A model generated the notes under the pieces. The model was not told the origin of the DNA. It did no database searches and was given only the letters and a program-made list of their open reading frames with translations. Below are positions 6,565 to 12,428 of a DNA stretch of 64,000 bases, piece after piece (position 1 is the stretch's first letter; every line of letters starts with the position of its first letter). The translations under genes were made by a program, and so were the position numbers. The DNA comes from Cutaneotrichosporon cavernicola (lineage: Eukaryota; Basidiomycota; Tremellomycetes; Trichosporonales; Trichosporonaceae). The stretch is taken from contig NC_083394.1 of NCBI RefSeq assembly GCF_030864355.1, positions 310,001-374,000 on the forward strand, read 5' to 3'.

Positions 6565-9500
6565 CTAGAAGTATGTGTCCCGCTCCATCCCCAGGACTGG
6601 GCACGGCCGAGCGCCCGACGAGTGGGCCGAGTTCCAACTGCGCACGCTCCCCGTCGGCGTGTCGAGGTCGAGGACGGGTTCGTCGCCGGGTCCCCCGACC
6701 GACGGGCTGGACGTCTCGGGGTCGGTGCTGGCCACGCCTCGCCCGGCATTGCGAGTGCTGTGCGTCGGGAAGCGGTACGAGACGTTGGTGAACGTCTCGT
6801 CCGTGCCCGTGTTGTCAGTCATATATGTCTCAGCGATGCTGACAATGTCCTCGTCACCCCCGTCTTCGTCATCCTCCTTCTCCTCGGGCTGGGGGGGGAA
6901 GCGCACCGGCGTCGACGACTGCGATGCCAGGCCGGGTTTGGCCAGCGATTCGCGGCGCGGAGGTGCTTCGGCTGTCGGCACGTAGTATGCCATCTGGCGT
7001 CCGCGTAGTGTGAATCCACATTTCTCGTAGAACGCTGGTGTCAGTATAGGAGCGGGTAGTAAGAGGTGAGTGGGTTATGGGCAGGCACCGGTATGGGATT
7101 GGATATATTGGTACTCACGGACTTTACACTCCTGGCAGTCCAGAATCGTCTTGTAGCAACCCAACTCGGTCGCAAGGTTACGCAATCCCACGACAAGCTT
7201 CATCCCTAGTCCGCGCCCCTGACCACTCTGGCCAACGACAATGTCTTCGATGTGTGCGGAAACGCTACCGCCGCGGATAAACTTGCGCTCCTTGACAACA
7301 GTGCCGGACGCGACGACCTGGTCTGTCGCGCGATCGACGAACACGACAATATAATACGTGTCGTGGCACGACTTGAGGGCGCGGAAGAGAGCGGCGTACA
7401 CGCTCGGCGCGAGGGCCGGGGACGGCGACAGATTGCCAAGTAGCGCAAAGTGGGCGCGGAGGAAGTCGTCCGAGGCAAGCGGGCGCACATGAATGTCGTT
7501 GGGAAGGGAGTCGCGCAACGACATCGGGATCTTGTCGGGGTTGAAGAGCAGGTCGAGGCCGTCGTCGGGTGTAAGGCCTATCTGCCCGTTCAATGCGTGC
7601 TCCATGTCCATCGAGTCCATGTCCAGGCTGGCCAGTTGGGATCCGAAGCCGCTGCTGTCCGGGTGCGGCGGAATGTGTGGCGTCTGGGCACCAGGTGGAA
7701 GGGGTGGCTGGAGTGACGACTGGGCCGAGATGTGCTGGCCCGTCGAATTGTGTGACGGAGGCTGGAACGAGATCGGTGTCTGCACCGGCCGGGGTGCGAC
7801 ACCAGGGTCGTCGCTCCCCGCACGCGCGTGCTGCGCAGCTATAGGGTGCTGCGTCGTGTACACGTGCAGCGGCGGGGTATGCACTGCAGGCGAGCCCGAC
7901 AGCGCACTCATCGAGTTCCCGCCCGTCGGCGAAGGGTATAGGTCGAGGCGGGTCTGCGAGCTCATCCTGCTGCTTGCCTTACTGGGCGACTGTGGTTCGC
8001 CGCCATAGTTGCCCTCCGGCGGGAACAGGAATTCGGGGTAGGTGATAATTTCCTCGAGCACCGTGTCCTTCTGGAGGTGCATCTTGAGCGCGTCGGCATC
8101 GTTGGACATCTGCTCCTGCCCAAAGAGTACCGAGTTAAACACGACGGCCAGGTTGGTCGCGTTCATCTTGTTCTCAGCGGCGTTCTTCGAGATGCGGTTC
8201 AGGTGCTCGATGACGGCCTGGAACGTCGTCTGGTGGATGGTCGGCAGGCGGCGGAGGCGGCCGCGCAGTGTAGAGAAGTGGTTCTTGTAGTGCTCCTCTC
8301 TCGACTCGGTCCACTTGACCCGCTCAGCGTGTGGCAATGGGAAGAGAGGGTCTGGCAGGTCGCGCAGATACGCCTTTAGCACGACAGCGACTGAGTAGAC
8401 GTCGTCGTCTGAGGTAAAGTTGAAAGTGTCCTCGTTCAGCTCAATGTTGTGGATCAGGCGGCGCACAGTTTGCTGCCGTCCGCTCATGCGGTAGATGCCC
8501 TCGGCGTCGTTGCCGAGGGCGTCGATCCAAGCGATGCACTTTTCGACTATGAGCGGTGGCCTCCCGTGGCCGCCCATCTCTCCACGCGCAAAGTCGTAGT
8601 CGGTTAGGCGGAAGCCAAAGATGAGCGATCGACAAGTTCCGACATAGAAGTTCTCGTACATGATCTGTGGGTAGCGCGAGACGACGGGAAGGCGAGAGTG
8701 GAAGAGCGCCTTGTCGCGCGTCGGGTCAACCTGGCGAACACTCTGCGAGACGACGTCGGTCGACTGGGCGAGCGTCATGGCTGCGCCGCGTGCGATTTGC
8801 GCGTACGCGCGGAGCGCGACGAAGAGCGCCGCATTGAGTTCAACGTTGAACTGACTCAGGCTGGTGATGGCCGATTGCTGCAACTTCTCGCGGCGCAGAC
8901 GCAGCGTCTCGACATGGAACACGCCGTGGCGGTACGCCTTGTCGGCCTCCTCGGCGTCGCGCTTAGTTTTGGCGCCCTTGACTGCACCGTTATTGTGCCG
9001 CACGGACCCTCGTCTCACACTCGCGCTCGCGCCGCCAAGTGTGCTGTCCGGGGCAACAATCGAAGGTGGGCCCTCGCCTTCGCGCTCGCCGCCGAGGCGC
9101 TGCATGATCGCCGCAAAGCCCTTCTTCGAGTGCGCAGCAATGTCGCTAAACACCTCCTTAGACTTGGCGTCGACTGCCTGCCTGGTCGCGGCGTACGATC
9201 CCGAGCCGGAACGGGCGCGCCCAGAGATGCTGTTAGACAGGCCGTGCCCAAGGGACCGGGTCTCACGCTCGAACGGACGAACGTCGGACTGCGCCGATGC
9301 AGCAGTCTGCTGCTGAGGGTACGGCGGCTGCGGGTAGGACTGTGTGTACAGCGTTTGGGCGTGCTGTGGGCTCTGTGGGGACTGCGCGTTGGGCGCATTC
9401 CCCGGTGGGGTGCCCGATTCTGCGTCGGACAGTCCGCTGCCCCAGCTCCCTGTCGCATTGTTGATGGACGAAGTGCTTGGCGAATGTCCGTGGGACGAGT

Positions 9501-10397
9501 AGGGGTGAGGCTTGGACTCGGGAGGTTCCTTCGGAACCTGCTCGGCCAGGAGTTTGGCCTGCATTTCTATCGCTTGTTGCTGCTTGCGGTGGTCCTCGAC
9601 GGCTTGCGTCTTTGAGCGGTACGCGCGCTGCATCTTGGGCACCTTGACATAGGCGTATTCTTCGTACGAGCCCGTCGCTGCCTTGAGGTCTTCGCAGATA
9701 CGGCTCTGGACACGGGTTTGTGTATGACGCACTGCGACGAGTGGGGCCAACACATCGTTCTGGAGCGCATTGTAGAAAGCCTCACGTGTCTCGATCTCCC
9801 TGGTCGTGTAATCACGCACGTCAAACCACGCACGGCGCGCGGTCGAGGTGACACGCGCGCGTGGATGCGGTGCACTGCAGTCAGCCACAGGGCGAGTCCA
9901 CTCGCGCCACGTAGACATACTCGTCCTGGAGGATGTCGGCGCCCTTGGATTTGGCGTGGAGTTTGGACAATGCCTGGATATAATCCTTCTCGATTTTGAG
10001 GCTGTGGAAGGAGTCAGCACGTTGCGCGTTACAGGCTCACCGCTCAGTGAAGTAACTGATGTATCCTTCGTCTGGACGTCAGCGATTCGTCATTAGGAAT
10101 GCAACCCGATCCTGCCAACAGCCTCACTGCGGCAGAGCAATGGAATGGCAGCTATTGATAGCGATTGCCACCAGCTCCACCGCTGACGCGTCCGCAGTTG
10201 CGCGCGGTCCGTCAGATAAGGCTAAGCAGAGCAGGGTCGACGTACCCTCTGTGAGCTTGCGCTGCGCGTTAGCACGAACCCGTCCGCCTTGCGCCACCCA
10301 CCTTGAACTCGCGCAGAATGTGCTGGTCCTGGTCCTCGCCCTTACGCGGTAGCGCCTGAGTTGGCTGGACGCCAGGTTCAAGCTGTGAGTATGCCAT
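6565..10397 (-). CDS. RGD1-GNA1 fusion: F-BAR / RhoGAP protein fused to glucosamine-6-phosphate N-acetyltransferase (GNA1)
   Basis: Six exons: 10302-10397, 10246-10261 (a 16-nt micro-exon), 10041-10071, 9921-10001, 7119-9874 and 6565-7034, giving 1,149 aa. The N-terminal part has F-BAR character (YISYFTERLKIEKDYIQAL, then a coiled segment). A Gln/Ser-rich linker interrupts it, and helical sequence resumes near residues 350-480. A RhoGAP domain spans about residues 510-693, with the arginine finger in GIYRMSG and conserved NLAVVFNSVLF. After a Ser/Pro linker, a full GNA1 domain follows at about residues 848-1010. It opens LLFNPDKIP, has VRPL, the acetyl-CoA loop QGRGLGMKL, IEDIVV, and closes FYEKCGFTLRGRQMAYY. 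A 135-residue acidic tail ends the protein. No stop codon separates RhoGAP from GNA1, which share the 2.7-kb exon. RhoGAPs switch off Rho GTPases; GNA1 makes GlcNAc-6-P for UDP-GlcNAc, the chitin precursor. An internal start could also yield GNA1 alone. Confidence 0.9.
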
Positions 10398-11053: not shown

Positions 11054-12428
11054 TCAGAAGGCCGTACCAAAGTACGGGTGCTGCTGCGCCTCGGCTGCTG
11101 TCAAGCGCTCCTGGTGGTCGTAGCGGAGAAGCTTGTCCAAAAAGTCAATGGCCTCGTTCGAGATGAAGCGCTGGTTCTCGGTCGTGATAAACTTGGTCCA
11201 CGGCTTGCGCGGGTAGCGCGAGATGAGGTCGTTGAACTGGGAGTCGAGGTCAATGTCGTAGCGCTCGAGGTAGTTGAAGAGCTCGTCAGTGCCGAGCACC
11301 TTTGTGATTTTGACAAGCTGGTCGGCATTGTCATGGCCGTGGAAGAAAGGCTCCTTTCTGAAGATCATGGACGCAAACATGCACCCGAGCGACCACATGT
11401 CGAGCGAGTAGTCGTACTCCTGGAAGTCGACGAGGAGCTCGGGACCCTTGAAGTACCGCGATGCCACGCGCACGTTGTACTCTGTGCCCGGGTGGTAGAA
11501 CTCGGCCAGTCCCCAGTCGATGAGGCGCAGTTGCCTCTTCTCGTGGTCGATCATGACATTGTGTGGCTTGACGTCGCGGTGCATGATACCCTTCGAGTGG
11601 CAAAAGTCGAGCGCCTTGAGCAGCTCAAAGATGTAGAAGCGCACGTCAAAGTCGGTGAACTTGGGGTACAGCGTCTTGAACTCGGTGTTGTTGACGTACT
11701 CGGACACGATCGACGGAGTCTTGGACTGGCTGTCACGCACCACATCCAACAAGCCGATGACGTTGGGCCCACCCGCCAGGTTCTGCAGGATCTTGATCTC
11801 GCGCTTGATCTTCTTCTTCTTCACTGGCTTGAGCACCTTGACGATGCACTTCTGGTTCGTGGGCAGGTGGACCGACTCGAAAACCTTGTCAGATCAGCAA
11901 ACACACTCTGGTGATGATGCTTGACGCTACGTACCTCTGAGTACTTTCCTCGTCCGACCTTGCGCACAATCTCGTAGTTGTCCTGTACGCCCCATGTGAC
12001 GACGAGGTTGTCTGGAGTCAGAGACGAGGTGAGCGAGGTGGAGGAGGCGATGGGGGCGAGGTGGAGGGCGGAGGGAACAGGGGGCTGAGGAAGAAACGGG
12101 AGAGGGGAGGGGGAGGGGAAGAGGAGGAGAACGGGACGGAGATAGGCAAGAAGGAGGACAGCCGATGGGAGACGAGCGAGCAAAGTGAGAATAATCGCCG
12201 CGGCTATCAACAGCGCTATCACTAAGCGCAGTGAGGGCAGTAGCTAGACAATGTCGCACAACACAAGCACAAGCTGCCAGCCGAGCCGTCCCCGCCAATC
12301 ACACGAAGCAACGCACCATAGTCCCACCACGAGCGGCCCATCTTCTCGTTCACGTCGGCGTAAACCCGTGCCTGCTGTCAGTGCTTCCTCGACATTGCGC
12401 AGCTCACAATACTCCGTGCGCCCGACAT
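11054..12428 (-). CDS. CKA1: Casein kinase 2 catalytic (alpha) subunit
   Basis: Four exons (12408-12428, 12317-12371, 11935-12011, 11054-11884) give 327 aa, the usual CK2 alpha size. Diagnostic features are [11 protein letters not shown] at the N terminus, the basic cluster [28 protein letters not shown] in place of DFG ([12 protein letters not shown]) and GPELLVD. The C terminus is short (YFGTAF). CK2 is a constitutive Ser/Thr kinase for acidic sites; it forms a tetramer with beta subunits and acts in nucleus and cytoplasm. The first intron is 36 nt and ends ctgacagcag. The second is 305 nt, unusually long for this window, and is pyrimidine-rich on the sense strand. The third ends ctgacaag, a non-CAG acceptor. 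The start is set by the tiny first exon encoding MSGARSI. Confidence 0.95.

Follow-up and report, generated by a model that had tools for sequence, protein, structure and literature searches.

How does a Rho GTPase-activating protein (RhoGAP) come to be joined in one reading frame to GNA1, the glucosamine 6-phosphate (GlcN-6-P) N-acetyltransferase, and what might the joined protein do? The question is raised by a gene on the minus strand of a 64,000-nucleotide stretch of the Cutaneotrichosporon cavernicola genome (positions 310,001 to 374,000 of contig NC_083394.1), referred to here as the window. Translation of the spliced window gives six exons running from an ATG at 10397 to a stop at 6565, with all five introns bounded by GT and AG, and a single product of 1,149 residues (126 kDa by sequence). 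The RhoGAP-GNA1 fusion is real and is one gene. An exon of 2,756 bases (7119-9874) runs without a stop through the RhoGAP domain, the linker, and most of GNA1, and the last exon (6565-7034) encodes the rest of GNA1, starting PFYEKCGF, and a tail of 136 residues with 24 Asp or Glu against 11 Lys or Arg. A preliminary description of this DNA, drawn up from its letters, had claimed such an in-frame fusion, with an acidic tail added by the exon that completes GNA1, and both claims stand. Two public C. cavernicola proteins, the NCBI entry P0001 (CcaverHIS631_0201280, strain HIS631) and P0050, each differ from the genome of the window by one residue, P0001 being otherwise identical to the model given here.

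The fusion is known here from gene models, which leaves an artefact of assembly or gene prediction to be weighed. The genes of the C. cavernicola genome were predicted by BRAKER with RNA-sequencing hints (PMC10568926). A homologue search with residues 420-1020 as query, its scoring limited to the top 7,987 candidates, returned 49 homologues; a GNA1 domain is present in 33 of them, in every case preceded by RhoGAP on profile checking, and since this order recurs so often the fusion is not a product of chance. An artefact, or a chance reading frame, is ruled out by an order common to 33 proteins of many species and by the single uninterrupted exon, and what probability it retains is vanishingly small. 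The gene and its product are laid out as follows.

6565..10397, minus strand: whole coding region, six exons encoding F-BAR, RhoGAP, linker, GNA1, and tail in that order (splicing and translation)
10302-10397, minus strand: exon 1
10246-10261, minus strand: exon 2
10041-10071, minus strand: exon 3
9921-10001, minus strand: exon 4
7119-9874, minus strand: exon 5
6565-7034, minus strand: exon 6
10262-10301, 10072-10245, 10002-10040, and 9875-9920, minus strand: introns within the first F-BAR half
7035-7118, minus strand: GNA1 intron of 84 bases, phase 1, matching the last intron of the stand-alone GNA1 in place and phase
9544..10334, minus strand: predicted first half of the F-BAR domain, residues 22-185 (FCH match, GAS7 profile match, long helices in the model)
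8782..8988, minus strand: candidate second half of the F-BAR domain, residues 371-439 (model helix, weak PSTPIP1 profile match)
8113..8556, minus strand: RhoGAP domain, residues 515-662 (arginine finger R537, with K575, R579, and N649)
7576..8112, minus strand: linker, residues 663-841, the putative ancestral C-terminal part of the RhoGAP protein (alignment, likeness to Naganishia by eye)
6976..7575, minus strand: GNA1 acetyltransferase domain, residues 842-1013, split by the intron at 7035-7118
6568..6975, minus strand: C-terminal tail, residues 1014-1149, acidic and of low model confidence
6766..6786, minus strand: tail motif NVSYRFP, of family form GVTYxFP (alignment)

Several searches identify the acetyltransferase as GNA1. 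Pfam places Acetyltransf_1 at residues 911-1001 of P0001 (E 7e-8), the top solved structures for this part in a single-sequence search are GNA1s (A. fumigatus 2vez, E 5e-23), a profile of 22 fusions matches GNA1 structures at E 1e-44, and the closest folds are likewise GNA1s; an NCBIfam search of the fusion protein gave matches under the cut-offs only. The fused domain carries the motifs HIED, QxxGxG, LDC, and FYEKCGF. The substrate-binding and leaving-group residues of C. elegans GNA1 are Glu104, Asp105, Lys136, Cys141, Tyr149, and Met161 (PMC3413214), and their equivalents in the window protein are E951, D952, K983, C988, Y996, and M1008, with Tyr149 and Met161, which lie outside the structure alignment, placed by ungapped extension; I953 is a Val in the worm enzyme. 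E951, D952, I953, and C988 are each present in 33/33 fused rows, K983 in 32 (one Arg), Y996 in 32 (one gap, at the cut-off end of P0004), and M1008 in 31 (two gaps). The phosphate-binding Arg164 of C. elegans is not kept and corresponds to Y1011. As 30/33 stand-alone basidiomycete rows also have Tyr in this column, Y1011 is not a mark of the fused copy, and the phosphate site of fungal GNA1 has been described as less polar (PMC7324522).

The N-terminal half belongs to a family with known members. Pfam recognizes RhoGAP at residues 515-662 of P0001 (E 3e-36), and R537, K575, R579, and N649, which we take to include the catalytic arginine and to be the catalytically meaningful residues, are conserved. 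The FCH match (residues 38-104, E 1e-5) scores 26.2 bits and falls below the cut-off of 27.8, as it does in P0025, P0171, and P0203, while P0238 (40.2) and P0184 (43.1) lie above it. When 14 relatives are combined in a profile, it matches F-BAR structures of GAS7 (E 5e-9), and a later region of it matches PSTPIP1 F-BAR weakly (E 9e-4). The predicted model has helices at 22-72, 86-185, and 371-439, the second and third being separated by low-confidence sequence. On these grounds a long insert seems to interrupt the F-BAR domain. Overall confidence in the full-length model is low (mean pLDDT, the predicted local distance difference test, 53.8; domain blocks mostly 60-85), so it was used for domain blocks only. 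F-BAR structures were not among the fold-search matches listed, and that search barely tested the F-BAR part. The N-terminal F-BAR feature of the Rgd1/Rga7 kind was judged present, and the F-BAR/RhoGAP half likely binds membranes. When the unfused F-BAR RhoGAP of Calocera (P0184) was searched against the C. cavernicola genome, the top match was the fusion gene (E 6e-82), the second-best locus reaching E 2e-20. Next to the fusion gene, at 11054-11893 on the minus strand of the window, lies a protein kinase gene (Pkinase E 8e-60), presumably of the casein kinase 2 alpha subfamily.

The fusion is spread over two orders. A survey of related Tremellomycetes for the same domain order, which the preliminary description had suggested, finds the 33 proteins in Trichosporonales (Cutaneotrichosporon, Vanrija, and Cryptotrichosporon) and Tremellales (Kwoniella, Cryptococcus including C. 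neoformans, Tremella, Naematelia, Kockovaella, and two further Tremellales); orders were looked up for Naganishia, Cryptotrichosporon, Vanrija, and Kwoniella, and orders and classes of the remaining genera are assumed. Among the best 120 of 156 matches to a profile search, 33 have an acetyltransferase domain by Pfam and 87 do not. Most of the latter come from Agaricomycetes; two Calocera proteins, that of Naganishia albida, and four entries of the C. gattii group are also among them. That a GNA1 part is lacking outside the fusion lineages is read from the gene models of one database. One of these unfused proteins, P0238 of Mycena sanguinolenta, bears the NCBI name 'Glucosamine 6-phosphate N-acetyltransferase', yet it has FCH and RhoGAP only, and the name was probably carried over from a Tremellomycete fusion. 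N. albida P0203 (Filobasidiales) has only RhoGAP and the sub-cut-off FCH, and after its GAP domain a stretch that by eye resembles the fusion linker (LPPxxALTRSGSLSY...GSxHTRxK); GNA1 was therefore probably added to a pre-existing C-terminal region of the RhoGAP protein.

A tree of 63 GNA1 rows (31 fused; 32 stand-alone, with 25 from Tremellomycetes and 7 from Agaricomycetes; rooted on the Agaricomycetes) was built without the incomplete rows P0031, P0004, and P0113; 33 stand-alone rows had been picked from the best 120 of 1,378 matches. The fused domains form one clade with support of 100/100 and a long stem, and because of this clade the fusion most likely arose once, after a duplication of GNA1. 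Separate fusions in the two orders are ruled out by the approximately unbiased (AU) test, which rejects an independent fusion in Trichosporonales, four rows having been assigned to that order post hoc by their tree position. A tree that keeps all 25 stand-alone rows from Tremellomycetes in one group is worse by 0.09 log units (p 0.47), so the fused stem may attach, and the GNA1 duplication may date, either before or after the split from Agaricomycetes.

The other product of that duplication is found in the same genome. In the 20.2-Mb assembly of 8 contigs that was searched, a stand-alone GNA1 of four exons and 183 residues lies at G000:C4:1385061-1385736, and it rules out the fusion as the only GNA1 of the cell; no convincing third copy was found with a Cryptococcus GNA1 query, one match at E 0.1 being set aside. 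The sole GNA1 intron of the fused copy corresponds in place and phase to the last intron of the stand-alone gene, which supports duplication at the DNA level; the first two stand-alone introns are missing from the fused copy. In 14 of the 18 species with both contigs listed, fusion and stand-alone gene lie on contigs of equal size, which suggests that GNA1 was duplicated within one chromosome. The four exceptions, on differing contigs, are both Cutaneotrichosporon and two fragmented assemblies, and in the eight species with comparable locus tags the two genes are 37-59 tags apart. By its sequence relationships, then, the fused domain is a duplicated, extra GNA1.

Could the locus simply yield a free GNA1 from an internal promoter, start codon, or splice form, the fusion being a minor product? 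Such an arrangement has a precedent in Toxoplasma GNA1, whose short isoforms come from internal starts (PMC11218972), and the window protein has in-frame Met codons before and inside the GNA1 start (MDMEHALNG, IPMSLRDS). At the column holding the start Met of 18/26 Tremellomycete stand-alone rows (the other 8 are gapped), however, none of the 33 fused rows has Met, and 28/33 are free of Met throughout the 14 columns 4-17, 5/33 having one somewhere there; the RNA-seq-hinted gene model also unites both halves. Two products are thus improbable. The 7 Agaricomycete stand-alone rows have F, L, or S at the start-Met column and start a few residues earlier; F or L may therefore be the old state, in which case the fusions need not have lost a Met at this place.

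The fused domain also appears to have been maintained. Across 14 species pairs its identity is 59-95%, as against 59-92% for the stand-alone enzyme, being higher in 4/14 and equal in 1/14 (C. deneoformans CNF03220 serves as the stand-alone row for C. neoformans). The linker, measured in 10 pairs, ranges from 21 to 87% and lies under the fused GNA1 in all 10, and the tail (13 pairs) ranges from 24 to 82%. The tail bears a motif, [GN][VI][TS][YF]x[FY]P, in 24/33 fusions and 0/79 unfused RhoGAP relatives; the pattern was drawn up post hoc from the alignment and is absent from 200 shuffles per tail. Other tail motifs are PAWAxEG (13/33 fusions) and PLPPGA (19/33 fusions, 1/79 controls). The kept residues, near-stand-alone conservation, and motif-bearing tail together point to purifying selection on the fused GNA1. 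A decayed second copy is ruled out by the kept catalytic residues and the conservation close to that of stand-alone GNA1. The preliminary description had named a stand-alone GNA1 accompanied by an inactive fused copy as a finding that would speak against it: the stand-alone gene exists, and the inactivity does not fit the kept catalytic residues and the conservation. The fused GNA1s also have clade-specific residues, V954, V969, and R1004. As a separate observation, the column of S891 (in P0001), presumably near the substrate phosphate, is Thr in 31/33 stand-alone GNA1s and Arg (16), Ser (10), Thr (6), or Ala (1) in the 33 fusions, a change that makes altered substrate handling possible.

What would an extra, maintained GNA1 do behind F-BAR and RhoGAP? 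Chitin is deposited at basidiomycete septa. In S. pombe, the F-BAR and RhoGAP protein Rga7 acts at the site of division and at cell tips, and together with Rng10 and Ync13 it delivers to the furrow the vesicles that carry Bgs4 and Ags1, two glucan synthases; RGD1 is its budding-yeast homologue, and the role of the Rga7 GAP domain is poorly understood (PMC12574955). The GNA1 of A. fumigatus is obligately dimeric, both monomers contributing to its active sites, and cells deleted for it are inviable unless N-acetylglucosamine (GlcNAc) is supplied (PMC7324522). From the placement of Rga7 and these facts on GNA1 we infer, at about an even chance, that the 1,149-residue protein works as an active GNA1 tethered to membranes at places under Rho control, for example the septum and bud neck. 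Its GNA1 part would acetylate GlcN-6-P, and the F-BAR part, which in Rga7 forms a stable dimer, would present two GNA1 domains to form the obligate dimer; the fused GNA1 may perhaps also pair with the free enzyme. Placed at tips and division site as Rga7 is in fission yeast, the fusion would supply GlcNAc-6-P locally in support of chitin synthesis while the RhoGAP part lowers Rho signalling, the stand-alone GNA1 presumably carrying the bulk, essential supply. The activity, location, and coupling proposed are drawn from sequence and analogy, and precursor supply coupled to Rho sites, which the preliminary description also envisaged, would be the best explanation.

Several points weigh against this proposal. 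Two further enzymes, a mutase and a pyrophosphorylase, must act after GlcNAc-6-P is made (PMC3413214), and this product can diffuse. Foldseek's longer GNA1 alignment has a root-mean-square deviation of 8.5, D987 (32/33 fused rows) is G in Kockovaella P0030, and the fused GNA1 is less conserved than the stand-alone enzyme in 9/14 pairs, by up to 10 points. Stand-alone GNA1s, identified by name among the 120 matches listed, are present in at least 20 of the 27 named fusion species, so the activity of the fused one is possibly unused. In the C. gattii group, four proteins (P0170, P0171, P0035, and P0036; 749-773 residues) end with ...SDRNLDPIF at the GNA1 border of C. neoformans, and the GNA1 part seems to have been lost or cut off there. 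Finally, deletion of gnat1 (CNAG_05695) in C. neoformans gave viable cells with wild-type-level filamentation (PMC5595294).

The last point depends on what CNAG_05695 is. Pfam RhoGAP maps to signal transduction in the Gene Ontology, which falls under regulation of cellular process. P0025, the fusion protein of C. neoformans, is named 'glucosamine 6-phosphate N-acetyltransferase' by NCBI. CNAG_05695 has been assigned to 'regulation of cellular process' as well as to two broader terms, and is missing from the displayed lists for regulation of Rho and small-GTPase signalling (PMC6687208). Because such general regulation terms fit a RhoGAP protein and not a plain acetyltransferase, and given the name of P0025, the deletion probably removed the fusion gene; if so, the fusion is probably dispensable in C. 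neoformans under the conditions used. With this viability and the C. gattii proteins that stop at the border, the GNA1 part is not indispensable there. Viability of the 'GNAT1' deletion would then likely be explained by the stand-alone GNA1 that remains, and work on the function and essentiality of GNA1 in Cryptococcus should count two genes.

These observations bear on a second explanation, in which an active GNA1 acquired by chance fusion adds activity and its link to RhoGAP is without functional meaning. That both GNA1 copies are retained, that deletion of the probable C. neoformans gene was harmless in the reported conditions (PMC5595294), and that the domain is absent from C. gattii-group proteins would fit a passenger of this kind; a single origin with the fused form kept in 33 proteins of two orders, and a tail motif confined to the fusions in the comparison above, would not, leaving it a minority possibility of perhaps one in several. 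Somewhat less probable still is a sensor, in which occupancy by GlcN-6-P and acetyl-CoA controls RhoGAP or membrane binding, and hexosamine flux thus sets Rho signalling and wall synthesis. Ligand residues kept despite a separate GNA1 for bulk catalysis, the long stem, the clade-specific residues, and the variable column that is Thr in most stand-alone enzymes are in keeping with it, whereas the retained leaving-group tyrosine and substrate lysine would be superfluous in a pure sensor, and the coupling is a proposal only. A related version, also unlikely and to a similar degree, is a metabolic gate: the fused GNA1, relieved of bulk duty by the stand-alone enzyme, would read the levels of GlcN-6-P and acetyl-CoA at the membrane and adjust the output of the RhoGAP accordingly, possibly by dimerizing with free GNA1; if true, Tremellomycete yeasts would couple Rho-driven wall synthesis directly to chitin-precursor flux. 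Under the preferred reading, an active GNA1 at Rho-controlled sites, the fusion would physically tie Rho regulation of the cell wall to the hexosamine pathway, a long-conserved connection in the group to which Cryptococcus belongs, and the spatial placement of wall-precursor supply becomes testable.

Several fusion proteins are already in public databases under GNA1 names. Full-text literature searches, beyond whose reach most subscription papers lie, returned no description of a RhoGAP-GNA1 fusion, in agreement with the preliminary description, which likewise knew of no published account; that description did not include the F-BAR domain, the stand-alone GNA1, or the conservation of the fusion, all of which were found here. 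A related report is that of C. neoformans 'Gnat1' (CNAG_05695), probably the same fusion and named GlcN-6-P acetyltransferase in strain H99, which is handled as a hexosamine-pathway enzyme, the RhoGAP part and a second GNA1 going unmentioned in the accessible text (PMC5595294). The GNA1s of A. fumigatus, S. cerevisiae, human, and C. elegans have the same whole GNAT domain and motifs as the fusion; the solved enzymes are chains of 149-190 residues, whereas the fused GNA1, of predicted activity, stands behind F-BAR and RhoGAP in 1,149 residues. In T. gondii, GNA1 likewise forms the C-terminus of a longer protein, but it has short isoforms and an extension that is likely dispensable, and RhoGAP is unmentioned in the accessible text (PMC11218972). 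Related in architecture are Rgd1 of S. cerevisiae and Rga7 of S. pombe, the accessible account of the latter mentioning no fused enzyme of sugar metabolism (PMC12574955); from both, the fusion differs in its complete C-terminal GNA1 and its tail with a conserved motif.

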